Source: Flavobacterium sp. 9 (GTDB lineage: Bacteria; Bacteroidota; Bacteroidia; Flavobacteriales; Flavobacteriaceae). Taken from it: DNA of 64,000 bases. This document shows, piece after piece, positions 4,300 through 64,000 of the stretch. The position numbers and the translations under genes are program-made. Under the pieces are notes generated by a model. The model did no database searches. It was not told the origin of the DNA and saw only the letters and a list, made by a program, of their open reading frames with translations. Numbering within the stretch: the stretch's first letter is position 1; the number at the start of each line of letters is the position of its first letter. Where the stretch lies: positions 3,348,001-3,412,000 of the forward strand of contig NZ_PEEU01000001.1 of assembly GCF_002754195.1 (NCBI RefSeq), given 5' to 3'.

Positions 4300-4851
4300 A
4301 TGTATATAAATCAAATTTCAATCGTTTTCAAAACATTTTTTGTGATTTTGATAGTCTCTTTTTCAAGTTCAGCAATTGCCCAACAAAAGTATGTTATAGA
4401 CAACAGCAATCATTTTTGGGACAAAGTTCAATTTGGTGGCGGACTTGGTTTAGGAATTGGTTCCGGTTATACAGATATTTCTGTTATGCCAAGTGCAATC
4501 TACAATGTTAATGAAATTGTGGCTTTTGGAGTAGGTTTACAGTTTGGATATTTATCTTCAAAAAACTATTATGATTCGTTTGTTTACGGAGGAAGTTTGG
4601 TTACACTTGTAAACCCAATTCCCGAAATTCAATTATCTGCAGAATTGGAGCAAGTGCGAATAAACACCAGTTATGATTCAACGCCGTACCGACCTTCTTA
4701 CTCTGATAATTATTGGAATACGGCCTTATATCTTGGAGCAGGTTACAGAACCGGAAGTGTAACCGTTGGTGCACGTTATGATGTTTTGTACAATGCACAA
4801 ACGAGTCTTTATGGATCTGGATTTATGCCTTTTGTGAGAGTATATTTTTAA
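4300..4851 (+). CDS. Small outer-membrane beta-barrel protein
   Basis: Function not known. The 183-residue product starts with a Sec signal peptide ending in SSSAIAQQ (cleavage near residue 27). It then has alternating glycine/aromatic amphipathic strands (GGGLGLGIGSGY, AVGVGLQFGY-like segments) and ends in a C-terminal phenylalanine (FVRVYF), the pattern of an outer-membrane beta-barrel recognised by the Bam machinery. The length suits an eight-stranded barrel. It is divergent from sucA (117 bp between starts) and is followed by two lipoprotein genes on the same strand. A porin-like or structural role is possible, but no substrate is suggested by the sequence. Confidence 0.8.
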   Translation: MYINQISIVFKTFFVILIVSFSSSAIAQQKYVIDNSNHFWDKVQFGGGLGLGIGSGYTDISVMPSAIYNVNEIVAFGVGLQFGYLSSKNYYDSFVYGGSLVTLVNPIPEIQLSAELEQVRINTSYDSTPYRPSYSDNYWNTALYLGAGYRTGSVTVGARYDVLYNAQTSLYGSGFMPFVRVYF

Positions 4852-4903
4852 AAGGTTCAGAGGTTCATAGCAACAAAGGTTCAAAGGTTTTAAATATTGA
4901 AAT

Positions 4904-5467
4904 TTGAAGAAATATATTTTTATAATTACAGCAATTATTATTTCGAGTTGTAATAATTCGAAGAAAGCAGAAGTTGTAGACACAAAAGTTGTAAAGAAAG
5001 AACTAAAACCTTTTTTTGATTCAGATAAAATAGATCATTATTATTTGAATTTTTCTGATGATGATTTTATGAAAATTATTAGAAAAGATAAGAATACTGA
5101 TAAAGAAGTCGAATTTATTACTTTATTTGTGCACAGTTTTCCTGATACTATTCCACAAGAAAACTTCGAAAAAATTCTATTGAATCATAAGTACAAAAAA
5201 TCAAATTTATCGCTCAAACAGCAAAAAGAGATTGAAAATGTCTTTAGCGAAAAAGATTCATTGCAAGATACTTTCGCTGCCTGTGCTGCAGAATATCGTG
5301 ACATTTTTATTTTTAAAAAGAAAGAAAAAACAGTTGGAATCGCAAAGATTTGTTTTAAATGTGGTCGTTTCCAGATTACGGGAAGTAAACTAGATACAAA
5401 CGGATTTGGACTTTGGTCTGAATTAGATAAATTGAAAAGTATTATTCGACCAAACGAAAAGCCTTAA
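4904..5467 (+). CDS. Lipoprotein of unknown function (TTG start)
   Basis: Not recognised. The 187-residue product has a lipoprotein signal peptide with lipobox ISSC (Cys at about 16). The mature part is Lys/Asp/Glu-rich and has a paired-cysteine segment, ICFKCGRF, near its end, which could form a disulfide or bind metal. The only start that keeps the signal peptide is TTG at 4904, because an in-frame TGA sits at 4898. It lies 52 bp after the beta-barrel gene and 60 bp before another lipoprotein, so a loose operon of envelope proteins is likely. Confidence 0.7.
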   Translation: MKKYIFIITAIIISSCNNSKKAEVVDTKVVKKELKPFFDSDKIDHYYLNFSDDDFMKIIRKDKNTDKEVEFITLFVHSFPDTIPQENFEKILLNHKYKKSNLSLKQQKEIENVFSEKDSLQDTFAACAAEYRDIFIFKKKEKTVGIAKICFKCGRFQITGSKLDTNGFGLWSELDKLKSIIRPNEKP

Positions 5468-5527
5468 CAACTGAGTTTCGGGACTAAGGTTTTGATTCAT
5501 TAAAATATTAATAATTACACTTCTTAA

Positions 5528-5944
5528 ATGAAAAAATATTTTGCTATTCTTTTTGGAATTTTTCTAGGAAGTTCGTCCTGTCAACAAAAGGAAACAAAAA
5601 ACGTTGATGTTAAAAAACAAGCTCAAATAAATGCAAATCTTGGAGTAATAAATTCTTTGCGTAATGCTGGTGATAAGCTAACTGCTTCAAGAGAAGTTTT
5701 TCACTGGATTTATTTCAAAGAAGAAAAACAAAGAAATAATTATTTGATAGAAGTAAGTAAGAAAGGATTTGAACTAGTGAGTTCAAATAAAATTAATGAT
5801 AAGTTTCCATATCAATTACAAATAAAAAGAATTGATAAAGTTGATGAAAATAGTGTAAATGATTATGTAATCTATTTATGGGAAAAGGCAATTGAATATG
5901 GTGGAGATTATGATGGCTGGGAAACAAGTATAGAAAAAACTTAG
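5528..5944 (+). CDS. Lipoprotein of unknown function
   Basis: Not recognised. The 138-residue product begins with a lipoprotein signal peptide ending in SSSC (Cys about residue 18). Its mature region resembles the regulator-of-RNase-E-B/DUF695-like pattern only loosely: charged, with ASREVFHWIYF near the middle and GGDYDGWET close to the C-terminus. The GGDYDGW ending is typical of small RraB-like (DUF695) domains, so a remote RraB-like fold is conceivable; I could not confirm this. It follows another lipoprotein by 60 bp on the same strand. Confidence 0.65.
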   Translation: MKKYFAILFGIFLGSSSCQQKETKNVDVKKQAQINANLGVINSLRNAGDKLTASREVFHWIYFKEEKQRNNYLIEVSKKGFELVSSNKINDKFPYQLQIKRIDKVDENSVNDYVIYLWEKAIEYGGDYDGWETSIEKT

Positions 5945-5979
5945 AACCTTAGCATCTAAGAATCTTAGAACCTCAAAAC

Positions 5980-7095
5980 TTACTGATAAATATAAACAGT
6001 AACATAAACCCCATCGTCTACTTTTATCAAATAACCATCAGTATCGTAAAAATATTTATAAGTTTGGGTTTTTTGAACCTCTCCATTATCGACTAACTTT
6101 TGTTCGATTACGTGTAAATATGGATTTGGTAAAGTTTGTCCTAGTAATGAGGAAAACGTAGTTGCGATTTTATAATAAGGTTCATTGTTGTAGATTCCTG
6201 CTTTTGTGCCGTCATATTTAGTAATTACTACTCGTCCATTAGCAACTTCTCCCTGAGACGGAATGACTTCATATCTTGTTTCTTTAACTTCAGTATCAGT
6301 ATATTCAAAAGTTGAGGCATTCATTGAACCTGCACGATGAATTACTCTTCCGCTTGAATCGTATGTATATGTAGTCGAATAGCCATCAATTAAAACATTA
6401 GTTATAAGTCCGTTTTCGTATGTATATGGCGTTTTATTGTTGATTACGTTGCCATTGCTGTCATATTCATAAGAAAATTCGATTCCTGAAGATCCAAGTG
6501 AATTAGGACCTTTTAGAATATCAATCCTTATAAGTTGTCCTAAATCATTGTAAGTGTAAGTTCTTACGTCACCTTTTGGTGTATTTGCGTTTAAAGCATC
6601 TTCACTTGCTGCATATAGATTATCAGTTAAAGAAGAGTCAGAAGTTGGATCAATTACGTATTTGTCTTTATCGTATTGGATCGATTGAACCAAATGTTTA
6701 ACAGTTTCACTTCTTTTTCCGCTGGCCGATTTTTTATTAATATTTTTTACTGCCGGTTTAAGCAATCCCGATTGCGGAAGTACAGCTTTAGATTGTGTTA
6801 TTTCGGTAGTTATGCTAAGAGTGAGTCCTTTACTATCTGTAATGATAAAGGTATAATTTCCTGCCTTCAAACCAGTTTGTGATGGTGAAATTGTATAAGG
6901 AGGAGTTCCTCCCGAAGGTATAAAAGTAACTGAGCCGGTATTCCCTCCATAAACAGCTACATCAATTTTTGTAAATGTTGCAGCCAAAGGTTTTATTACA
7001 ACTTCTGGTTCAGTTTTGACAGGTGTTTTTGTCGGTTCATCTGATGAGCAGGAAGCTATTATAATAAAAGATAACAGAAGGATAATTTTTCTCAT
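5980..7095 (-). CDS. YD/RHS-repeat-like lipoprotein
   Basis: A 371-residue lipoprotein with signal peptide and lipobox IASC (Cys 16). After a Thr/Pro-rich linker comes a region of about 75 residues resembling a SprB/PKD-like repeat (GGTPPYTISPSQTGLKAGNYTFIITD), then several YD-type repeats: YTYNDLGQLIRID, YEYDSNGNVI, YTYDSSGRVIH and YFYDTDGYLIKV. RHS/YD repeats form extended beta shells, but this protein is far too short for a toxin cage and has no core domain or toxin tip. It is best seen as a short surface lipoprotein of unknown role. It is convergent with the small lipoprotein gene ending at 5944. Confidence 0.75.
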   Translation of the reverse strand: MRKIILLLSFIIIASCSSDEPTKTPVKTEPEVVIKPLAATFTKIDVAVYGGNTGSVTFIPSGGTPPYTISPSQTGLKAGNYTFIITDSKGLTLSITTEITQSKAVLPQSGLLKPAVKNINKKSASGKRSETVKHLVQSIQYDKDKYVIDPTSDSSLTDNLYAASEDALNANTPKGDVRTYTYNDLGQLIRIDILKGPNSLGSSGIEFSYEYDSNGNVINNKTPYTYENGLITNVLIDGYSTTYTYDSSGRVIHRAGSMNASTFEYTDTEVKETRYEVIPSQGEVANGRVVITKYDGTKAGIYNNEPYYKIATTFSSLLGQTLPNPYLHVIEQKLVDNGEVQKTQTYKYFYDTDGYLIKVDDGVYVTVYIYQ

Positions 7096-7180
7096 GAATT
7101 TCGGAAATTATCCAACAAATATTAAGATTTTTTCTGAATAAATCTAACTGTTTTGTAGAAAAGTGTAGTAAGTCAGAATT

Positions 7181-7534
7181 TTACTTGTAGTGATTTCGAA
7201 ACCACACTTTCTGCCATTCTCTTTTTAAAATCAAAAACGCAACCTGTTCAGCAAGAATTACCAAATCAGAACCGTCTAGTTTTTTGATTTCACTTTCCGA
7301 AACATCGATAATATAAAGCAAGTTTAAATATTCAGCGAATTTGTACTGAATCATTCTGTAGATTTTTTCGTGAAGTTGAATTTTTAATTCATCCGGAGAA
7401 ATGCTTAACGGAAAATCGATGCCTTCATTTGCCAAATTAAAATCCTTATTAATTTGTTCAATCAGGTTTAGATATAGGTTTTCTTTTTCGGCATCAGCCA
7501 ATAAAAAATCGGTATTTTCAGGAATTGGAAACAT
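7181..7534 (-). CDS. Conserved-looking hypothetical protein
   Basis: Not recognised. The 117-residue product is soluble and mostly alpha-helical, with no signal peptide or membrane segment. It begins MFPIPENTDFLLADAEKE and is acidic in the first half, basic at the C-terminus (REWQKVWFRNHYK). A TAnnTTTG match (TAACTTTG on the minus strand, 7557-7564) lies 23 bp upstream of the ATG, which supports it being a real, separately transcribed gene. It lies between the YD-repeat lipoprotein and the LacI regulator on the same strand. Confidence 0.7.
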   Translation of the reverse strand: MFPIPENTDFLLADAEKENLYLNLIEQINKDFNLANEGIDFPLSISPDELKIQLHEKIYRMIQYKFAEYLNLLYIIDVSESEIKKLDGSDLVILAEQVAFLILKREWQKVWFRNHYK

Positions 7535-55619: not shown

Positions 55620-57383
55620 ATGAGGCTGATCATCTCTTTTTTACTCTTTTTTGTTCTGAATACATCATTTTCTCAAAAAAATGTGTTGACAGAACAAGAG
55701 TACACAGCATTGCAAAGTAAAATCCGACTTAATTTTAACGCAAATGTCGATAGCGCTGTTGTATATGCTAATCAAATGGCTAAATCAAATGATCTTAGGC
55801 ATAAGGCTTTTGCAAATGGATCGTTGGTTTATTCTTTGCAAGCAAAAGGGAAAACAAAAGAATCTAAAGAAAAGTATAAGCTGGCGATTGGTTATTTAAG
55901 TGAAATACCGGCATCAAGAGATAAAACACAATTAGAATCTTATATTCTAAATTTTGCCGGGATGGCAGAATGGAAAAGAGGTAATTTTAGTCAGGCCATT
56001 GAAAGATATCAGAAAGGGATGAAACTTTCTGTAGAGATAAGAGATGTTTTGCAAATTGTTAAATTCAAGATTAATATTTCGATAATTAATGAGGCAGTTG
56101 GTAATTACCAATTAGCTATTAAAAATATACGGCAACTCGACGCTTTTATTGATAAAAATGAAGATTTGTTTACGAAGGAAGATTTTTTAAATAGAAAAAG
56201 TAATATAAACAGCAATTTAGCGAGTTCGTATGAAAGCTATTTTATGAAAAATCAAAGTAAAAAGTATCTGCTAGACTCGGCAGAATATTTTTACAAAAAA
56301 TCAATTACATATTCGAAAAATAACCCATATACTAAAATTAGTTCAAAATTAAGTTTAGGTAATGTTTACAATTGGAAACAGGATTACGTAAATGCTGAAA
56401 AAACCTATTATGATGTTGTGTTTTTATCGCAACAGAATGATCAGAAAGATTTATTGTGTGTGGCAAATTATAATTTGGCAGATATATATTACACCACTAA
56501 AAAATACGATAAAGCACTTGTGTTTTTTAAAAAATGCGATTCAATAGCCGCTTTAACAAACTTAAATCAGCTTGATTTTTTAAAGTCGAATTATTATCAG
56601 GCCAAAATCTATAATATATTGAAGAGGCCAGAATTAGCGTATAAACATTCTAAAATTTATTTGGATAATTATGAGAAATTCGAAACAAAATTAAATGAAC
56701 AAACGTTAGAAGTAAACTATAAACAAGGAGTTGGTAATCTTACGGATGAAATGGTTACTATTGAGAAAAAATATAAAAATGAAGTTTTCTTAAATAGAGG
56801 GTTAAGAGTTTTTTATGTACTTCTTTTTGTTGTAATTGTATTTTTATTGATAAAAAACATTAGAGATAAAAATAAAGCTCACAAAAAAATGAATGCTTTA
56901 ATCGAAGAATTTAAAGCCAATATAGAGAAGAGAAATAATCCTGAGTTTGAGCAAAAAGAAGTAGAAGTAATAGAAGAACTCGTGCTTGAGCCTGAAGAAG
57001 TCCATCTTAGGAAAGAGAATGTCAATTTAAGTATTGATGAGGCCAAAGAAAATAAAATAGTCGAGAAATTGCTGGCTCTGGAAAGCAAGTTAGAATACTT
57101 AAATGCGGATTTTACATTGCCTTATGTAGCAAAAAAAATCAAAACAAATACAACCTATCTGTCTTATGTTGTCAATAAGCGATTTGGTAAATCATTTGGG
57201 GAATACTCAAATGAACTTAAAATTAATTATGTAATCAACGAGATGATTACTAATCACATGTATCGTAAATACTCTACTCAAGCTATTGCGGAGAGTGTAG
57301 GTTTTAAAAATGCGGTTTCTTTTGCAAAATCATTCCGTAAAAGAACCGGAGTATCTCCAGCTCAGTTTGCAAGTAATATTTAG
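55620..57383 (+). CDS. Membrane-spanning TPR-AraC regulator 1
   Basis: A 587-residue one-piece sensor-regulator: signal/anchor segment ending NTSFSQ (about 19), a periplasmic TPR region (about 30-370), one transmembrane helix (VFYVLLFVVIVFLLI, about 396-411), a cytoplasmic coiled segment, and a C-terminal AraC-type HTH (YVAKKIKTNTTYLSYVVNKRFG then STQAIAESVGFKNAVSFAKSF, about 500-580). Such proteins couple a periplasmic signal directly to DNA binding. It is followed after 47 bp by a close paralogue, and both lie next to the GG-leader peptide genes, which they may control. Ligand unknown. Confidence 0.88.
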   Translation: MRLIISFLLFFVLNTSFSQKNVLTEQEYTALQSKIRLNFNANVDSAVVYANQMAKSNDLRHKAFANGSLVYSLQAKGKTKESKEKYKLAIGYLSEIPASRDKTQLESYILNFAGMAEWKRGNFSQAIERYQKGMKLSVEIRDVLQIVKFKINISIINEAVGNYQLAIKNIRQLDAFIDKNEDLFTKEDFLNRKSNINSNLASSYESYFMKNQSKKYLLDSAEYFYKKSITYSKNNPYTKISSKLSLGNVYNWKQDYVNAEKTYYDVVFLSQQNDQKDLLCVANYNLADIYYTTKKYDKALVFFKKCDSIAALTNLNQLDFLKSNYYQAKIYNILKRPELAYKHSKIYLDNYEKFETKLNEQTLEVNYKQGVGNLTDEMVTIEKKYKNEVFLNRGLRVFYVLLFVVIVFLLIKNIRDKNKAHKKMNALIEEFKANIEKRNNPEFEQKEVEVIEELVLEPEEVHLRKENVNLSIDEAKENKIVEKLLALESKLEYLNADFTLPYVAKKIKTNTTYLSYVVNKRFGKSFGEYSNELKINYVINEMITNHMYRKYSTQAIAESVGFKNAVSFAKSFRKRTGVSPAQFASNI

Positions 57384-57430: not shown

Positions 57431-59161
57431 ATGAGGCTGATTGTTAGTTTTTTATTCTTTTTTATTCTCAATGCTACTTGCGCTCAGCATACAAATTCGA
57501 TGTCCGAAGAGGAATATGCAATTTTGAGACATAAAATCAGAACAAATTTTAATGCAAATACAGATAGTTCTCTTGTATATGCGAATCAAATGGCAAAATC
57601 AAATAGCAACAAACATTTGGCTTTTGCAAATGCGGCATTATCAGTTTTATGGCAAAATAAAGGAAAAACAGAATTATCAAAAGAAAAATATAAAACAGCA
57701 CTTTATTATCTGGACAAAGTACCTGATTCTAAAGATAAGATACAATTGCGATCCTATATATATAATTACGGCGGGCTGGCAGAGTTTGACAGAAGAAATT
57801 TTAGTGCCGCAATTGAAAAATTTCAGCAGGGAATCAAACTTTCGCAAAAAATAGGAGATATTAATCAACTGGTTAACTTTAAGGCGAATATTGTCTTGGC
57901 TAACGAAGTAGTAGGAAACTATAAATTAGCGATTAAAAATGGAAAAGAACTTGATAATTTTCTTCATGAGAATAAAGATTTATTCGATAAAGAAAGTTTT
58001 CTGAATAAAAAAAGTAACATTAACCTTAGTTTAGGAGGTTCTTATGAAGATTACTTTAAGGCAAATAAAAGCAAAAGATACTTGTTAGATTCAGCCGAGT
58101 ACTATTATAAGAAGACAGTTGATTATTCGGATAATTATCTTTTTAATAAAATCACGGCAAAATTAAACTTAGGAAATGTCTATAATTGGAAAGGTAATCT
58201 AAAAGATGCTGAAAAAGCCTATTATCAGGTTGTACTTCTTTGCGAGGAGAATGATCAAAAAGAGTTATTATGTAGTGCCAATTTTAATTTAGGAGATGTT
58301 TGTTATACCCAGAAAAAGTACGATAAAGCATTGTTTTTTTATAAGAATACAGATTCTCTTGCGATTTTAAGTAATTCGAATGAGTTAGATTACCTAAAAT
58401 CTAATTATTATCAATCAAAAATTTATACAATTCTTAAAAAGCCGGAACTGGCTTATGAGCATTCTAAAATTTACTTAGATAGTAAAAAAAAATATGAGGA
58501 AAAATTAAAGAAAGAAAGATCAGATGTAAATGAATTACAAGGAGTTGATTCTCAGACAGAGGAAATGATTGCTGTCGAGCAAAATTATAAGAAAGATCTT
58601 TTTTTAGATAAAAGCCTGAAAGGTTTTTATATATTTTTAATTATTGGAACTGTTACGCTCTTGGTAAAAAGCAATAGAGATAAAAATAAGGCCAATAAAA
58701 AGATGAGTGCCATAATACAGGAACTTAAAGCAGATATAGAAAAGGAAAATGGTAGTTTTGCCAAAGTGAAATTGCTTGAATCTATAAAAACTGAAAATGC
58801 AAGTTTATGCATTGATCTGGCTAAAGAAAATGAAATCGTCGAAAAGCTTTTAGAGCTTGAAAATAACTTAGAATACTTGAATACCGGCTTCACATTAGCT
58901 TATGTGGCAAAAAAAATCAAAACAAATACTACTTACTTATCTTATGTCGTCAATAAGCGATTTGGAAAATCATTTGGAGAATATACCAATGAGCTAAAAA
59001 TTAATTACGCAATTAATAAGATGATTACCAGTGAAACCTATCGAAAAAAATCTACACAAGCTACGGCAGAAAGCGTAGGATTTAAAAACGCTGGTTCTTT
59101 TGCAAAATCATTTCGCAAAAGAACCGGAGTATCTCCGGCTCAGTTTGCGAATAATATTTAG
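57431..59161 (+). CDS. Membrane-spanning TPR-AraC regulator 2
   Basis: A 576-residue paralogue of the preceding gene with the same order: signal segment ending NATCAQ, periplasmic TPRs, transmembrane helix (GFYIFLIIGTVTLLVKS, about 396-412) and C-terminal AraC HTH (TNTTYLSYVVNKRFGKSFGE, then ESVGFKNAGSFAKSFRKRTG). The DNA-binding domains of the two are nearly identical while the TPR parts have diverged, which suggests similar DNA targets but different periplasmic inputs. It is convergent with the minus-strand peptide gene at 59182. Confidence 0.88.
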   Translation: MRLIVSFLFFFILNATCAQHTNSMSEEEYAILRHKIRTNFNANTDSSLVYANQMAKSNSNKHLAFANAALSVLWQNKGKTELSKEKYKTALYYLDKVPDSKDKIQLRSYIYNYGGLAEFDRRNFSAAIEKFQQGIKLSQKIGDINQLVNFKANIVLANEVVGNYKLAIKNGKELDNFLHENKDLFDKESFLNKKSNINLSLGGSYEDYFKANKSKRYLLDSAEYYYKKTVDYSDNYLFNKITAKLNLGNVYNWKGNLKDAEKAYYQVVLLCEENDQKELLCSANFNLGDVCYTQKKYDKALFFYKNTDSLAILSNSNELDYLKSNYYQSKIYTILKKPELAYEHSKIYLDSKKKYEEKLKKERSDVNELQGVDSQTEEMIAVEQNYKKDLFLDKSLKGFYIFLIIGTVTLLVKSNRDKNKANKKMSAIIQELKADIEKENGSFAKVKLLESIKTENASLCIDLAKENEIVEKLLELENNLEYLNTGFTLAYVAKKIKTNTTYLSYVVNKRFGKSFGEYTNELKINYAINKMITSETYRKKSTQATAESVGFKNAGSFAKSFRKRTGVSPAQFANNI

Positions 59162-59181
59162 CTTACAATAAAGTGATTTAT

Positions 59182-59343
59182 TTATCCTGCAGGAGTGTTA
59201 CCACCTTTTCCGGGATCATTTTCTTGTGGTGTTGGTATCGGTGCAGGTATAATAGGAGTGTCTCCTCCGCGAACGATTTTTTGTTGATTTTTAGATAACT
59301 TTTGTGCTCCAAAATCTTCTAGTTTTAATGTTGTATTTGTCAT
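59182..59343 (-). CDS. GG-leader peptide precursor, cysteine-free core
   Basis: A 53-residue precursor. Leader: MTNTTLKLEDFGAQKLSKNQ then QKIVRGG, matching the double-glycine leader pattern of the neighbouring peptides (L-S-K/x-x-E/Q-Q-K ... GG). The core after GG is DTPIIPAPIPTPQENDPGKG plus NTPAG: Pro/Gly-rich and without Cys, unlike the four plus-strand precursors. The ATG at 59343 is chosen because it gives a standard leader; the frame extends 14 codons upstream. A minus-strand TAGTTTTG promoter box lies 30 bp upstream. It is presumably cleaved and exported by the C39 transporter at 62796. Confidence 0.8.
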   Translation of the reverse strand: MTNTTLKLEDFGAQKLSKNQQKIVRGGDTPIIPAPIPTPQENDPGKGGNTPAG

Positions 59344-59372
59344 GTTTTTATGTGTTAAGGTTATTACATTGT

Positions 59373-59380
59373 CAAAACTA
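59373..59380 (-). promoter_or_regulatory. -7 promoter element of the minus-strand peptide gene
   Basis: Minus-strand TAGTTTTG, a perfect TAnnTTTG, 30 bp upstream of the ATG at 59343. An AAAACCCT/AGGGTTTT inverted repeat (59391-59398 and about 59418-59425) lies just upstream of it. Confidence 0.55.
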
Positions 59381-59604
59381 GACAAAAAGCAAAACCCTTA
59401 ATCGAGAATGGCGTTTTGAGGGTTTTAGTAAAATTTTAATCATTGTAATTATTTGATTTTCAATTCGTTAAATCTACTACTATGACTTATATAATTTATA
59501 AATTGTATGTAGTATAATTGATAAAATGTCTGCTTTTGTGATTATTTTTCGAATAAAAACAGCAATATTTGTATTGTAATTATGATTTTAAACAGCCGAA
59601 AAAG

Positions 59605-61161
59605 ATGTTAAAACTTGTCCAAAAATTTCTCCAAATAAATAGATACTCGGAAATTAAAAATGAGTTTAAAGATCTGTTTCTTTCTCATCCTAATTATCCA
59701 AGTCTATTTGCTATAACAGATTCTTTTGATTTACTATCTATAGAGAATGCTGCGGTAAGAGTTTCGAAAGAACAGATTGTCGATTTGCCTTCAAATTTTT
59801 TAGCTTATTTTAAAGAAGAACTTATATTGGTAGAAAAGGCTAAAAATTTCGTTCTTATTAATAGTCAGAAAAAAAGAAATTATAAAATGGCCTATGAAAA
59901 ATTCCTTTTAGACTGGAATGGAGTAATTGTAGCTATAGAACCTAATAATATTGTAGAAAGAGAAAATTTGAAAATAGAATACAATTGGGTGAAATATTTT
60001 TTTCCTCTTTTACTTCTAACAGGATTATCATTTTTTTATAATACTTATAATTGGTTTAGTCTTATTTTTTTAGGAACATCAATTTTAGGATTGGTTGTAA
60101 GTGTTTTAATAGTTCAGGAAAAGTTTGGTTTTAAAAACAGTATAATTTCAAAAATTTGCAATTTAAGTTCTAATTCATCTTGTGATTCAGTTATAAACGC
60201 TAATCTGGGAATTCAAAATAAATGGATTAATTTTTCAGATTTGCCATTGCTTTTTTTTAGTGCAAGTTATATATCAATTTTAATTCAGCCTCTAAATTCA
60301 GCAATTTTTATTGGATTTTTAAGTTTACTGGCAATTCCTGTAATAGTTTCGTCTATTTGGATTCAAAAGTTTGAAATTCAAAAATGGTGCGTTATGTGTC
60401 TGCTAGTTTCATTTTTGATTTTTACGCAAAGTGTTGTTTGGTTTTCATCAGATTTATTTACGTTGAGTTTTAGTTTTGAAAATGTTTTTCCATTCTTTTT
60501 TTCATTGATATTTCTTGTGCCAATTTGGTATGTTATCAAATCAATGATAAAAAATATTTTGAAGAATGAAAACTCGTTAAAAGAATTAAAAAAATTTAAA
60601 AGAAATTATTCTTTATTGAACTTTTTATCTAAGAAAGTTCCTAATACTAAAGGATTTGAAGACTTGAGAGGGTTGAATTTTGGGAACAGAAATGCTGCTG
60701 TAAAACTTTCAATAATAATAAGTCCAAGTTGTGGACATTGTCATAAAACGTTTCAGGAAGGATTCGATTTAGTTTTAAAATATCCGGACAAAATATTTTT
60801 GAATGTTCTATTCAATATTAATCCGGAAAATAATGATAATCAATACAAGGTTATTGTTGAAAGACTTTTATCAATAAACAGATCAACACCGGGAAAAACG
60901 GTTGAAGCTATTTCAGACTGGCATATCAAAAAGATGAGCTTGAAGAAATGGTTGAAAAAATGGAATGTTGATTCGATTAGTATGATGATAACACAGGAAA
61001 TAAACAAACAATACGAATGGTGTTCTAAGAATAATTTTAATTATACACCAGTTAAAATTGTAAACGACAAATTGTTTCCAAGCGAATATGAATTAAGTGA
61101 ATTGAAATACTTTTTGAACGATTTTGTTGAAGAAGTTGAAATTTTTGAAAAAACGGCATAA
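59605..61161 (+). CDS. C39-like / VKOR / thioredoxin-fold membrane oxidase
   Basis: A 518-residue three-part protein. Residues about 1-120 resemble a C39 peptidase-like domain but lack the catalytic Cys motif. Next is a vitamin-K-epoxide-reductase-type four-helix domain with its loop cysteines C185 and C193 and the quinone-side WCVMC pair (C262, C265). The C-terminal thioredoxin-like domain has SPSCGHCH (C376, C379). VKOR-thioredoxin fusions make disulfides in exported proteins using quinone. Here the likely clients are the cysteine-containing peptides encoded just downstream. The ATG at 59605 is chosen over a TTG 36 bases upstream. The C39-like part may bind GG leaders. Confidence 0.9.
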   Translation: MLKLVQKFLQINRYSEIKNEFKDLFLSHPNYPSLFAITDSFDLLSIENAAVRVSKEQIVDLPSNFLAYFKEELILVEKAKNFVLINSQKKRNYKMAYEKFLLDWNGVIVAIEPNNIVERENLKIEYNWVKYFFPLLLLTGLSFFYNTYNWFSLIFLGTSILGLVVSVLIVQEKFGFKNSIISKICNLSSNSSCDSVINANLGIQNKWINFSDLPLLFFSASYISILIQPLNSAIFIGFLSLLAIPVIVSSIWIQKFEIQKWCVMCLLVSFLIFTQSVVWFSSDLFTLSFSFENVFPFFFSLIFLVPIWYVIKSMIKNILKNENSLKELKKFKRNYSLLNFLSKKVPNTKGFEDLRGLNFGNRNAAVKLSIIISPSCGHCHKTFQEGFDLVLKYPDKIFLNVLFNINPENNDNQYKVIVERLLSINRSTPGKTVEAISDWHIKKMSLKKWLKKWNVDSISMMITQEINKQYEWCSKNNFNYTPVKIVNDKLFPSEYELSELKYFLNDFVEEVEIFEKTA

Positions 61162-61167
61162 AAAATA

Positions 61168-61203
61168 CAGACATAAGCTTCAAGTGTCTTAAAATAATTG
61201 AAG
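61168..61203 (+). promoter_or_regulatory. Duplicated upstream element, copy 1
   Basis: A 36-base block that is 31/36 identical to 62230-62265. It lies 31 bp upstream of the peptide gene at 61235. It contains a GCTTCAAGTGTCTT core. It has no TAnnTTTG box, so it may be a binding site for one of the TPR-AraC regulators, or part of a conserved leader RNA. Confidence 0.7.
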
Positions 61204-61234
61204 GTCTATTAACAAGAAACAAAAAACACAAATC

Positions 61235-61369
61235 ATGTTAGAAAAATTTTTAAAAACAGAGGGTACTAAAAAATTATCAAAAGAAGAACAAAAAAATACT
61301 GCAGGCGGAACCTTCCCTGAAGTTGGAATGTGTTGGGATGTTAATAGAGGATATTATAAATGCTTGTAA
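61235..61369 (+). CDS. GG-leader peptide precursor A (2 Cys)
   Basis: A 44-residue precursor too short for usual gene callers. Leader MLEKFLKTEGTKKLSKEEQK then NTAGG, followed by the core TFPEVGMCWDVNRGYYKCL with two cysteines that could form one disulfide. It starts 74 bp after the VKOR-thioredoxin gene and is preceded by copy 1 of the duplicated element. The leader pattern (LSKEEQK..AGG) matches natural-product precursors exported by C39 ABC transporters. Confidence 0.85.
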   Translation: MLEKFLKTEGTKKLSKEEQKNTAGGTFPEVGMCWDVNRGYYKCL

Positions 61370-61384
61370 AAAGAAAACAGTGTG

Positions 61385-61404
61385 GAGAAGTTTAAAAGCT
61401 TCTC
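61385..61404. repeat. Short hairpin between precursor genes A and B
   Basis: GAGAAG (61385-61390) and CTTCTC (61399-61404) form a 6-bp stem with an 8-base loop. No T-run follows; it may stabilise the upstream peptide mRNA. Confidence 0.45.
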
Positions 61405-61488
61405 TGCATTTCACAAGAATGAAAGAATAAAAATAAGTTGTTGTTTTGAATAAATGAAGGATAACCCAAACTATTAAATCTACTAATT

Positions 61489-61698
61489 ATGTTAAAAAAC
61501 ATTTTAAACTTAGAAGGAGCTCAGGAATTAAGCATTTTCGAGAAAAAGAGTATTAATGGCGGTGCTTATCCGGTCGAGCCAATTTGTGGATACGTTACGT
61601 GGAGCGCAAGCGAAACGGTTTGTTTGAATTATAATCCTTATTACAGACCTGTTTATTTAGGGAATAATAAGTGCTCAATTGTGGGAGATGCTTGTTAA
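61489..61698 (+). CDS. GG-leader peptide precursor B (4 Cys)
   Basis: A 69-residue precursor. Leader MLKNILNLEGAQELSIFEKK then SINGG, very similar to precursors C and D. The core starts AYPVEPICGYVTWSASETVC and ends NNKCSIVGDAC, with four cysteines and many aromatic residues. It lies in the same direction as the VKOR and transporter genes. Likely a secreted disulfide-bonded peptide; activity (antibacterial, signal or other) is unknown. Confidence 0.88.
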   Translation: MLKNILNLEGAQELSIFEKKSINGGAYPVEPICGYVTWSASETVCLNYNPYYRPVYLGNNKCSIVGDAC

Positions 61699-61727
61699 AT
61701 TGAGTTAGAAATATAAATAAATATAGA

Positions 61728-61919
61728 ATGTTAAAGAAAATTTTAAATCTTGAAAATGCTCAGAGAATCACCAAAAATGAGCAGAAAACAATGCAGGGAG
61801 GAATTCCTGAATGTTGGATTTATGCGATTGAAGCGGGTTGTGTTTTAATACCTGTTGGAGGAACTTGTCCTATGGATACGTTGCCGGGTATTTGCGACTC
61901 GATTCGTCTTTGTTGTTAA
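61728..61919 (+). CDS. GG-leader peptide precursor C (6 Cys)
   Basis: A 63-residue precursor. Leader MLKKILNLENAQRITKNEQK then TMQGG. The core begins IPECWIYAIEAGCVLIPVGG and ends ICDSIRLCC, with six cysteines, enough for three disulfides. It follows precursor B after 29 bp, so the two are probably co-transcribed. The region downstream (61920-62152) has no supported gene. Confidence 0.88.
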   Translation: MLKKILNLENAQRITKNEQKTMQGGIPECWIYAIEAGCVLIPVGGTCPMDTLPGICDSIRLCC

Positions 61920-62152
61920 TTTTTAACTTTTTTAGAAGTAATTACAATATAGCCTTTTTTAGAATTTAGTCATGTTTTTTTTAATTTGTAGGCGCTCGAT
62001 CGTGGAACATTGAGCAAATTCCCCACATTGATGATTGGTGTTGGGATTCTTTAGGAAAATTGGTCACTGAGTTGATTTTATTTGGTTAGGGTTAACCAGT
62101 GCCATGTCCTACAGAAATTGGATTACTGATAATAGCGTTTTTAAATACTTAA
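61920..62152. other. Gene-free stretch after precursor C
   Basis: No supported gene. A 34-codon open stretch without a start (about 61988-62092) reads ...IDDWCWDSLGKLVTELIL and could be a decayed peptide core, but it has no leader. Confidence 0.4.
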
Positions 62153-62187
62153 CAGAAAGGAGAATTATTTCCTTTCTGTTTTTTTTA
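62153..62187 (+). terminator. Terminator before precursor D
   Basis: CAGAAAGG (62153-62160) pairs with CCTTTCTG (62171-62178), followed by eight T. It separates precursors A-C from precursor D, which therefore needs its own promoter. Confidence 0.9.
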
Positions 62188-62229
62188 TTTATAGAATAAC
62201 CAGTAATAATTACAATGCTAGCTTTTTAG

Positions 62230-62265
62230 CAGACAGATGCTTCAACTGTCTTGAAATGATTGAAG
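62230..62265 (+). promoter_or_regulatory. Duplicated upstream element, copy 2
   Basis: 31 of 36 bases match 61168-61203. It begins 43 bp downstream of a terminator and ends 24 bp before the precursor D start, so it likely includes or borders that gene's promoter or regulator site. Confidence 0.7.
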
Positions 62266-62289
62266 TAATAACAAATCAAAAAACAAATT

Positions 62290-62481
62290 ATGAAAAAATT
62301 GAAAGATTTAATCGGAGTTGAAATTTTAAGTGTTAGTGAAAAGAAAAGTATTAACGGCGGAGGTGTCGGAATGGAGGCTTGTTATTGCCCTGGAACTGGT
62401 ATTTTTGCTGGAGTTATACATCCGGGTGAAGGTGAAACTTGTGCAGCAGTTATTGAAGAAAACTGTTGGTTAGATAACTAA
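62290..62481 (+). CDS. GG-leader peptide precursor D (4 Cys)
   Basis: A 63-residue precursor. Leader MKKLKDLIGVEILSVSEKKS then INGG, with an additional G after the pair. The core GVGMEACYCPGTGIFAGVIH is followed by PGEGETCAAVIEENCWLDN, with four cysteines. It stands between two terminators and is preceded by copy 2 of the duplicated element, so it is an independent transcription unit just before the exporter gene. Confidence 0.88.
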   Translation: MKKLKDLIGVEILSVSEKKSINGGGVGMEACYCPGTGIFAGVIHPGEGETCAAVIEENCWLDN

Positions 62482-62500
62482 TTTTCATATTTAGAACCAA

Positions 62501-62538
62501 AAAAACCGCCTTATATTTTTATTTTGGCGGTTCTTTTG
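62501..62538 (+). terminator. Terminator after precursor D
   Basis: AACCGCC (62504-62510) pairs with GGCGGTT (62526-62532), followed by CTTTT. It lies about 20 bp past the precursor D stop. Confidence 0.85.
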
Positions 62539-62795
62539 TATAAATATTTGAATTTATTTCTTTAACCGTTTCTTCAATAAAGTATTTCTCTTTACATTTT
62601 TATAATAATTCTTTTGTTCCAATAAGCCTTTTAATTTACAAGCAGAAATTGAAAGTTTTACACATTTAATAACGCAACATTTATTTTGGCTAAAGAAGAA
62701 TTATAAAGGAAATAAAAATAGTTAGAAAAGTTCTTGATAAATATTACATTAGCAAAACTAAAATTTACCATAAAAGGTAGGAAATTAATTAAGAA
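62539..62795. other. Gene-free stretch upstream of the exporter gene
   Basis: About 257 AT-rich bases with no gene found. It should contain the promoter of the exporter gene; no perfect TAnnTTTG box was recognised. Confidence 0.4.
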
Positions 62796-64000
62796 TTGAA
62801 AAAATTTACCAATTATATACAAGCTGATCATAAGGATTGCGGCCCAACATGTTTAAAAATAATAGCAAAACATTACGGTAAGACAATCAACATTCAGGAG
62901 TTGAGGGACATTAGCGAAACAACTCGGGAGGGAAGTAATTTGCTTTTTTTAAGTGATGCTGCAGAGAAAATTGGTTTTAGAACCCTTGGTGTAAAAATAA
63001 GTGCCGAAAGATTAGACGAAGCCCCACTTCCATGTATTTTGCATTGGAACCAGAATCACTATGTAGTACTTTATAAAATAAAGAAAGGTACTTATTATAT
63101 TTCAGATCCGGCTTTTGGTCTGATTCAGTATAATAAACAGGATTTTTTTAAATTCTGGATTGGAAATAATGCCGATGAAACTACAGAAGAAGGAATCGCA
63201 TTATTGATCGAAGCAACGCCTAAATTTTTCCAATCTGATTTTGATAAGGAAGACCACAAAGGATTAGGATTCAAATTACTGTCACAATATGTTTTAAGAT
63301 ATAAATCGTTTTTGATTCAATTAAGCATAGGGTTATTGGCTAGTAGTTTGATACAGCTAATTTTCCCGTTTTTAACCCAAAGTATTGTAGATATTGGGAT
63401 TCAGAATCAAAATATTCATTTTATTTATTTAATACTCTTCGCGCAATTGTTTCTTTTTGCAGGAAGAACAGGTTTGGAACTTATCAGAAGTTGGATATTA
63501 CTGCATCTTTCTACCCGAATAAACATCTCGCTGATTTCAGATTTCTTTATAAAACTAATGAATCTGCCTATTTCATTTTTTGATGTACGTATGACAGGAG
63601 ATATCATGCAAAGGATTAACGATCATCGAAGGATCGAAAAAATTCTGACGACTTCATCAATAAATGTTTTATTTTCTGTGATCAACATGTTTGTCATGGG
63701 AGGCGTTTTGGCATACTTTAACCTTCAGATTTTCTTTGTTTTCTTTGTCGGAAGTTTTTTTTATTTCGGATGGATTACCCTGTTTTTAAAACGACGAGAA
63801 GTTCTGGATTACAAACGATTTGCTGAAGTTTCGCAAGAACAGAGTAAAGTGATGGAGCTTATCAACGGAATGCAGGAAATCAAACTCCACAATGCCGAAA
63901 AACAAAAACGCTGGGGCTGGGAATATGTTCAGGCAAGACTTTTTAGAGTTTCGATAAAAGGATTGGTTTTAGAACAAACTCAAACCATTGGGTCCTCTGT
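62796..64000 (+). CDS. C39 peptidase-ABC transporter (partial, runs off the window)
   Basis: The first 401 codons of a bacteriocin-type exporter; the gene continues beyond base 64000. Residues about 1-130 are a C39 leader peptidase with the catalytic motif QADHKDCGPTCL (C15), the His in LHWNQNHYVVLY and the Asp in YYISDPAFG. The transmembrane domain follows from about residue 165 (SFLIQLSIGLLASSLIQLIF onward); the ATPase domain lies outside the window. It cuts after GG and exports the peptide. The start must be TTG at 62796, because an in-frame TAA lies at 62790-62792 and there is no ATG before the catalytic motif. Confidence 0.93.
   Translation, partial: MKKFTNYIQADHKDCGPTCLKIIAKHYGKTINIQELRDISETTREGSNLLFLSDAAEKIGFRTLGVKISAERLDEAPLPCILHWNQNHYVVLYKIKKGTYYISDPAFGLIQYNKQDFFKFWIGNNADETTEEGIALLIEATPKFFQSDFDKEDHKGLGFKLLSQYVLRYKSFLIQLSIGLLASSLIQLIFPFLTQSIVDIGIQNQNIHFIYLILFAQLFLFAGRTGLELIRSWILLHLSTRINISLISDFFIKLMNLPISFFDVRMTGDIMQRINDHRRIEKILTTSSINVLFSVINMFVMGGVLAYFNLQIFFVFFVGSFFYFGWITLFLKRREVLDYKRFAEVSQEQSKVMELINGMQEIKLHNAEKQKRWGWEYVQARLFRVSIKGLVLEQTQTIGSS

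Follow-up and report, generated by a model that had tools for sequence, protein, structure and literature searches.

The subject of this report is a peptide secretion locus at the right end of a 64,000 nt stretch of DNA from Flavobacterium sp. 9 (contig NZ_PEEU01000001.1, positions 3,348,001 to 3,412,000; hereafter the window, to which coordinates refer unless another locus is named), together with a small element which precedes three of its peptide genes. The host genome is a single contig of 6.33 Mb. On the plus strand, the locus encodes a 518 aa protein (59605–61161, counted from the ATG at 59605) in which a degenerate C39-like domain, a VKOR domain and a thioredoxin-like domain are fused. 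It is followed by the small precursors A (61235–61369), B (61489–61698), C (61728–61919) and D (62290–62481), and by a 730 aa C39 peptidase ABC exporter (62796–64988), whose C39 and transmembrane (TM) domains lie inside the window and whose ATPase domain is located just beyond its end at 64000. The leaders of A to D are 24–25 aa long and end in a glycine pair (GG), and the cores hold 2, 4, 6 and 4 cysteines, respectively. The initial annotation had described these precursors, with the VKOR-thioredoxin protein on their 5' side and the exporter on their 3' side, and this description is borne out by a leader pattern scan of the whole 64 kb and by a Pfam scan. Besides A to D, the leader scan returned one cysteine-free GG peptide on the minus strand and nothing else; in each of 20 first-order Markov shuffles of the window it gave 0 matches. 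No family above cut-off was found for A to D in Pfam and NCBIfam or, for B and D only, in PADLOC. An HlyD-type adaptor, which the same annotation had proposed to look for right of 64000, is indeed located there (64992–66281; HlyD_3, 53.5 bits), followed by a third copy of the element (66508–66542) and a sixth precursor with a GG leader and 4 cysteines (66569–66748). Farther right an S41 peptidase-like protein and a CarbopepD_reg protein are encoded. We consider it likely that this locus serves as a platform at a fixed place in the chromosome, from which disulfide-bonded peptides are secreted, with exchangeable cassettes and pseudoknot leaders.

A search among close relatives yielded 56 named loci in addition to that of the window, 54 of them labelled Flavobacterium. 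Both flanking genes and a TPR-AraC gene are present in 54 of the 56, the two remaining records beginning just before the VKOR gene, and the exporter is present in 52. In loci of sufficient extent, a conserved gene (hyp266 in our query) comes first, followed by an acyl-CoA dehydrogenase gene, one or more TPR-AraC genes and, in most, minus-strand genes for cysteine-free peptides; next are VKOR, the peptide genes, the C39 ABC exporter and HlyD, with an S41 gene in some loci. Mean pairwise identities are 0.96 for the acyl-CoA dehydrogenase (22 sequences), 0.90 for the ABC exporter, 0.87 for HlyD, 0.80 for VKOR and 0.72 for TPR-AraC.

Within this frame, 118 plus-strand precursors with 110 distinct cores were found, which fall into 17 families (A belongs to F07, B to F05, C to F01 and D to F03); a few are situated after the HlyD gene. 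The 44 loci with complete frame genes hold 23 distinct cassette sets, the empty set included, and the most widespread family, F01, occurs in 44 loci. When tested against the tree of the frame, only F01 and F08 show fewer changes than any of the shuffles; F02, F05, F06 and F07 are on a par with the lowest one, and F03, F04, F09 and F10 are unremarkable. By this computation, the peptide genes between VKOR and the exporter appear as a set that turns over within a fixed frame. The precursor scan in the relatives required a leader, not cysteines. Over the 56 loci and that of the window, the cysteine number is even (2, 4 or 6) in 109 of the 110 distinct cores and in 16 of the 17 families: 54 cores have six, 37 have four and 18 have two. 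The sole odd core, with three cysteines, is located past the S41 gene.

Closely similar DNA 50–60 nt upstream of unlike peptide genes was the starting observation for the element. It is 35 nt long and consists of two interleaved inverted repeats, stem 1 (AGACA/TGTCT) and stem 2 (CTTCAA/TTGAAG). The resulting lengths (5 bp, a 4-nt loop, 6 bp, 1 nt and an 8-nt A-rich loop) fit the geometry of a classical H-type pseudoknot. Both copies within the window are on the plus strand. Pseudoknot 1, whose first base is separated from the VKOR stop codon by 7 nt, occupies 61169–61203 (stem 1 61169–61173/61185–61189, stem 2 61178–61183/61198–61203), and pseudoknot 2 occupies 62231–62265 (stem 1 62231–62235/62247–62251, stem 2 62240–62245/62260–62265). 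At A, D and the sixth gene the element lies about 28 nt before the ATG. A weight matrix gave 39 matches in 1.01 Mb, one of which was counted twice; every match was on the sense strand, and shuffles gave 0–1. After more loci had been added, the number rose to 112 in 1.89 Mb, including two that repeat the same site, and shuffles yielded none. A 26-mer with at most three mismatches matched 43 times in 20 of 249 genus genomes, versus 4 matches for the reversed control. One exact consensus pattern was found in no viral contig. In Rfam 15 nothing matched the elements at E≤1, either in window positions 59000–64000 or in five loci.

For the analysis of covariation, 107 distinct copies were chosen by sequence only. 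Paired cells make up 95.5%, against 86.3% in shuffled and 27–46% in slid alignments. The number of cells changed on both sides is 129, against 36.6 in shuffles, and such double changes occur in 10 of the 11 pairs; on none of five measures was any of 500 shuffles as high. Counted over the two stems together and read on the sense strand, G.U outnumbers A.C by 64 to 12. Thinning to 38 copies leaves a ratio of 30 to 8 and double changes in 58 of 417 cells. Furthermore, several stem-2 sequences coexist inside single genomes. By computation, both stems covary.

As to what follows the element, 144 of 164 distinct sites precede a peptide of at most 130 aa with a GG-type leader (loose pattern) and at least 2 cysteines. 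A further 13 precede short peptides which are of the leader type by eye, two of them cysteine-free (L111, L173) and four without a glycine pair, giving 157. The ATG is found 62–69 nt after the start of the 50-mer (central 90% of the strict sites in one site set), that is, about 28 nt past stem 2. Many of the 164 sites sit in VKOR loci, hence not all were found independently of the peptides. The independent part consists of 18 sites in the genus which the RNA model located with no VKOR within 12 kb on the contig, and all 18 precede such peptides, two of them cysteine-free; some are at contig ends and the G333 site adjoins a TPR-AraC gene, so that broken loci may account for a few. The window genome itself has a further element 0.89 Mb away, before a 6-Cys peptide, and no exporter was recognised by eye within 6 kb of it. 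With a covariance model of stem 2 the element was detected in 41 of the 249 genus genomes, all 41 of which also possess VKOR. In the family sample it is present in 18 of 149 genomes, 15 of them with VKOR. In the phylum sample it occurs in 7 of 296 genomes, every one in the same family. Stricter filters were applied in these large scans, and weak matches were lost. The long proteins behind a few elements (814 aa in L136, 175 aa in L141, 379 aa in L158 and 916 aa in L114) are possible further members of a regulon.

The fusion protein was examined domain by domain. Its VKOR domain is above the Pfam cut-off (38.3 versus 27.5 bits). The thioredoxin part of the window copy is below (18.8 versus 23.2 bits), that of homologue P0095 and of the L006 copy above. 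The CxxC motifs are WCVMC and CGHC, and a loop cysteine pair (ICN..SC) is present. The VKOR CxxC and the loop cysteines are invariant in the three copies of this genome and 73 aligned sequences, and the CGHC cysteines of the thioredoxin part are kept among homologues. The N-terminal stretch gives a match to Peptidase_C39 which covers the later two thirds of that domain and is slightly below cut-off (21.7 versus 22 bits). Eight relatives were scanned for this domain with Pfam, namely three chosen on purpose for their precomputed C39 label, three further ones and both paralogues encoded in this genome; it is above cut-off in four (the three labelled ones and L006) and below in one. An hhalign comparison, one against one, of 19 N-domains with 10 exporter C39 domains gave a probability of 95.9 and an E-value of 5e-9 at 14% identity, which supports a relationship at the level of profiles. 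In this alignment the exporter's Cys, His and Asp positions, which we take to be the catalytic residues of C39, are not kept in the VKOR protein. We infer that the N-domain is a dead C39-like domain, which may bind leaders or serve in docking.

VKOR proteins of this type are present in 79 of the 249 sampled genus genomes. For a wider test of their association with peptides, 40 distant VKOR loci were taken, 24–33% identical to the window copy and drawn in equal parts (20 and 20) from the genus and the family. In 37 of these, at least one GG-type peptide with at least 2 cysteines is found within 5 kb, and in 31 a C39 ABC gene within 8 kb; the peptide scan hit 4 of 200 shuffled 11.5-kb stretches and 0 of 4 such blocks from the left part of the window. 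Cysteine counts at the distant loci are mostly 6 and 4. We also tried to relate odd counts to loci with DUF6625 or DUF6734 (S-glycosylation), and found no clean split among the distant VKOR loci. Disulfide-bonded exported peptides, as postulated in the initial annotation, are thus well supported by comparison, through both the even cysteine numbers and this co-location, and the peptides are probably exported and disulfide-bonded.

The same annotation had held that maturation is oxidative rather than by side-chain modification and that no modifying enzyme exists in the window. For the locus of this genome the former idea fits, no such enzyme being recognised next to it. As regards the latter, the genes read around the locus, those just right of 64000 included, comprise no recognisable enzyme of the kind that modifies ribosomally synthesized and post-translationally modified peptides, a result which covers these genes and not a library scan of every open reading frame (ORF) of the window or its right flank. 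Orthologous slots between VKOR and the exporter hold a grasp-with-spasm pair in one case (L026, 10677–14656; TIGR04192 268.9 versus 230, TIGR04193 184 versus 175), a LanM in another (L048, 11061–15090; TIGR03897 504 versus 304) and DUF6625 in two, with a redoxin in L033 and in near-identical genes of L039, identified by their likeness to L033. TlpA-like proteins are in the slot at L017 and L051, and a second VKOR at L039 and L051. The sister VKOR loci of this genome, L005 (6739–15019) and L006 (8635–12000), both have DUF6625, and L005 also DUF6734. With graspetide, lanthipeptide or DUF6625 cassettes occupying the slot between VKOR and exporter in a few species, the locus as such is not bound to purely oxidative maturation. 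In L048 the pseudoknot is also present, before the first peptide gene. In L147 (2372, coordinate after reversing) a pseudoknot is followed by a 6-Cys GG peptide and then, by eye, a LanC-looking protein. At L005 and L006 there are Cys-rich GG/AG peptides, possibly glycocin-like.

To the left of the VKOR gene, two regulators of the TPR-TM-AraC type are encoded on the plus strand (55620–57383 and 57431–59161), with 63% identity to each other. Pfam recognises TPR_12 and HTH_18, and signal and TM parts were read by eye; regulator 1 has a signal-like N-terminus, TPRs, one TM-like stretch and a C-terminal HTH_18. Among eight TPR-AraC matches in this genome at E≤1e-5, these two are the only full-length ones. 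The cysteine-free GG-leader peptide (27 + 26 aa; 59182–59343, minus strand) is situated beside regulator 2. TPR-AraC genes are present in 59 of the 249 genus genomes, all 59 having VKOR as well, and 68 of 73 copies lie within 8 kb of a VKOR. Over 41 loci the mean p-distance is 0.356 for the TPR part, 0.040 for the helix-turn-helix (HTH), 0.197 for VKOR and 0.090 for a flanking gene. Cysteine-free GG peptides exist in 51 of 57 loci, in 1–6 copies each, and are more alike within (0.34) than between loci (0.76). Their minus-strand genes (window, L014–L069) encode D/P/G/K-rich cores, occur in tandem copies that resemble one another inside a species, and adjoin the TPR-AraC genes, a pheromone-like arrangement. 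A partial Mantel test of coevolution between core and TPR gave r 0.17 (p 0.006). With HTH and linker also controlled this fell to r 0.09 (p 0.10), and the leader correlates more strongly (0.33). This weak core correlation together with the stronger one of the leader leaves simple linkage as an alternative. A receptor with changing ligands is what we would hypothesize from the resemblance, the coevolution being weak and partly explained by linkage. In L028, L029 and L040 (about 4700–7430), extra partial TPR-AraC matches (418–443 of 587 residues) stand beside a full copy and may be sensor-only or decaying.

With regard to transcription, an intrinsic-terminator-like hairpin of 13 pairs with a T tract is located between C and D (62151–62180, plus strand); the search found 4 such sites in 5 kb, with 1.7 expected. 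This hairpin suggests that precursor D is a separate transcription unit with its own transcript start. The consensus box TAnnTTTG was found between element and ATG at 0 of 95 sites, and where an upstream ORF of at least 35 aa exists (83 sites), it ends within 50 nt in 46. The lack of this box before the ATG and the close upstream stop codons together favour transcription through the element. An A-rich stretch lies before the ATG. Nor did a search for a box at a fixed distance reveal one: 147 upstream regions contain 7 exact boxes at scattered places, and with at most one mismatch the box is found at 15 of 45 mostly stand-alone sites, compared with about 13 in shuffles. Just upstream of the element, a perfect palindrome of at least 8 bp is present at 66 of 154 sites versus about 10% in shuffles, most often centred 4–5 bases before the 50-mer. 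Palindromes such as CTTGCGCAAG or TTCGCGAA (L130, L170, L171, L004 4505) vary in sequence and are nearly fixed in place. A sub-threshold Rfam match to CRISPR-DR6 in the window (62616–62655; 26.2 versus 39 bits) is probably due to chance.

The idea of a peptide platform is built on what was established by computation, that is, the gene set and its conserved place, the cassette turnover, the even cysteine numbers, the stem covariation and the nearly fixed position of the element; from these we infer every biochemical step, the role of the RNA and the signalling link. GG-leader precursors would be translated from exchangeable cassettes, and the mRNA pseudoknot which many of these carry about 28 nt before the start codon would set or regulate translation or mRNA stability. 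Pseudoknot-bearing genes, distant genomic copies included, might in this way constitute one post-transcriptional group. The C39 ABC exporter with its HlyD adaptor would cut the leader after GG and export the core, and the VKOR-thioredoxin fusion would form the disulfides; the dead C39-like domain of this fusion may be used to recognise GG leaders or for docking to the exporter. The adjacent TPR-AraC proteins would regulate the locus, possibly by sensing the cysteine-free GG peptides. Judged from the precedent of the bacteroidetocins only, the activity of the peptides is most likely antibacterial. A bolder version is rather doubtful: the pseudoknot would sense a ligand or protein and represent a new class of regulatory RNA, uniting scattered and exchangeable genes for secreted peptides of Flavobacteriaceae in a post-transcriptional regulon with shared exporter and oxidase, and the cysteine-free GG peptides of the same island would be pheromones sensed by the TPR part, taken to be periplasmic, of the neighbouring AraC regulators.

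Several findings weigh against this explanation or narrow it. The copies of the element are related, hence the shuffle counts overstate significance, though the double changes persist after thinning. The palindrome may be a DNA site or a further hairpin, and the element itself could in part function as a site on DNA. Four of the 157 peptides behind the element have no glycine pair; of the 164 sites, four precede long proteins and three are followed by no ORF within range. Of the 18 element-bearing genomes in the family sample, 3 are without a VKOR match. By a structural descriptor (shuffle rate 5 of 590) the element is found before 0 of 44 genes of the peptide C family and 0 of 128 minus-strand cysteine-free genes; therefore it is not needed for every peptide here, and two cysteine-free GG peptides elsewhere (L111, L173) do carry it. 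At some distant VKOR loci odd cysteine counts (5, 7, 9) are found, and 8 also occurs. As for the weak C39-like match, a precomputed C39 label is attached to only 3 of 120 listed VKOR-fusion homologues, and the match is absent in 3 of the 8 scanned relatives.

Could the element act at the level of DNA, as an operator for the TPR-AraC regulators or another factor, instead of as an RNA? Their DNA-binding part is very conserved (0.040) and the TPR part is not (0.356), so that a shared DNA site would be expected, and the palindrome just upstream (66 of 154 sites) would suit such a role. However, two interleaved covarying stems with several stem-2 sequences per genome are unlike the site of one factor, the excess of G.U over A.C (64 to 12) is strand-specific, and the TAnnTTTG box is missing between element and ATG at all 95 sites. 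In addition, of the 40 distant VKOR loci, 20 of which come from outside the genus, only one shows a TPR-AraC match of more than 300 aa, though many have the element. We therefore hold an operator to be quite improbable. A recombination site, folded as single-stranded DNA like attC and moving the peptide cassettes, would agree with the 23 cassette sets in 44 loci and with elements that accompany peptide genes to other places of the genome, but it is very improbable in view of the nearly fixed ATG distance and sense orientation; no integrase was noticed among the genes of the window locus, and the C family and the minus-strand cysteine-free genes are without the element.

Two other rivals concern the peptides. 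They might be signals or metal-binding molecules and not disulfide-bonded toxins, VKOR then serving the exporter or other proteins. In favour of this proposal, the genes read at the window locus include no recognisable immunity gene, and the cysteine-free peptides adjoin receptor-like regulators; yet VKOR and Cys-rich GG peptides are co-located in 37 of 40 distant loci and 109 of 110 cores have even cysteine numbers, which makes it hardly probable. Finally, it seems unlikely that the locus is nothing more than a standard class II bacteriocin cluster like those of the bacteroidetocins. Those clusters, too, comprise a GG leader, cysteines, a thiol oxidoreductase and a C39 ABC exporter (PMC6671954), but leaders here have 24–25 aa in place of 15–16, many unlike peptides and HlyD are present, VKOR carries a C39-like domain, pseudoknot leaders exist, and modifying enzymes are found in the slot of a few species.

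We thus prefer the platform with exchangeable cassettes and pseudoknot leaders. The C39-like N-domain, the two TPR-AraC regulators, the pseudoknots and the cassette turnover had been missed in the initial annotation. Being defined by its sequence, the pseudoknot offers a way to trace secreted disulfide peptides in this family, a large set of which few members have names (homologues of peptide C are mostly called hypothetical by the sources, where named at all), and it also finds peptide genes with no exporter seen in their neighbourhood. Should the RNA prove regulatory, antibacterial or signalling peptides would be controlled by a structured RNA, and this in a phylum in which the signals for translation start depart from the textbook pattern. 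Leader-guided oxidation and cassette exchange become directly testable through the dead C39-like domain and the constant frame around changing cassettes. Among the matches listed for the themes of VKOR/C39 bacteriocins, pseudoknots and Flavobacterium GG leaders, there was no publication title on this locus or RNA.

Parts of this system resemble known ones. RRNPP peptide receptors of Firmicutes combine a TPR sensor with an HTH and are encoded beside small exported peptides; unlike these, the TPR part of the regulators described here looks periplasmic and comes with a TM stretch and an AraC HTH. The preQ1-I and SAM-II riboswitches are small H-type pseudoknots of about 35 nt with an A-rich third loop, located 5' of an ORF. 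The element is like them in size, interleaved stems, A-rich third loop and 5' placement, and unlike them in that it precedes genes of secreted peptides and has no Rfam match in the stretches searched. In cyanobacterial fusions VKOR is joined to a thioredoxin-like domain with CxxC, whereas the protein of this locus has an extra degenerate C39-like domain at its N-terminus and is genetically linked to GG peptides. Class II bacteriocins of Gram-positive bacteria, such as pediocin, have a GG leader cut by C39 and disulfides; here, by contrast, no immunity gene was recognised, VKOR has a dead C39-like domain, and a fixed island holds multiple cassettes. The closest comparison is with the bacteroidetocins, proposed as class IIf, which have a GG leader of 15–16 aa, 4 cysteines, a thiol oxidoreductase and a C39 ABC exporter, with one peptide per region in two regions described (PMC6671954). 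Both systems belong to Bacteroidota and share a GG-leader Cys peptide, a thiol oxidoreductase gene and a C39 ABC exporter. The longer leader, the several unlike peptides, the HlyD adaptor and the VKOR fusion set the present locus apart, and the bacteroidetocin gene with five TM segments was not recognised among its neighbours, which were read without a TM predictor. Without claiming membership, we suggest by analogy that the locus works like the bacteroidetocin systems.

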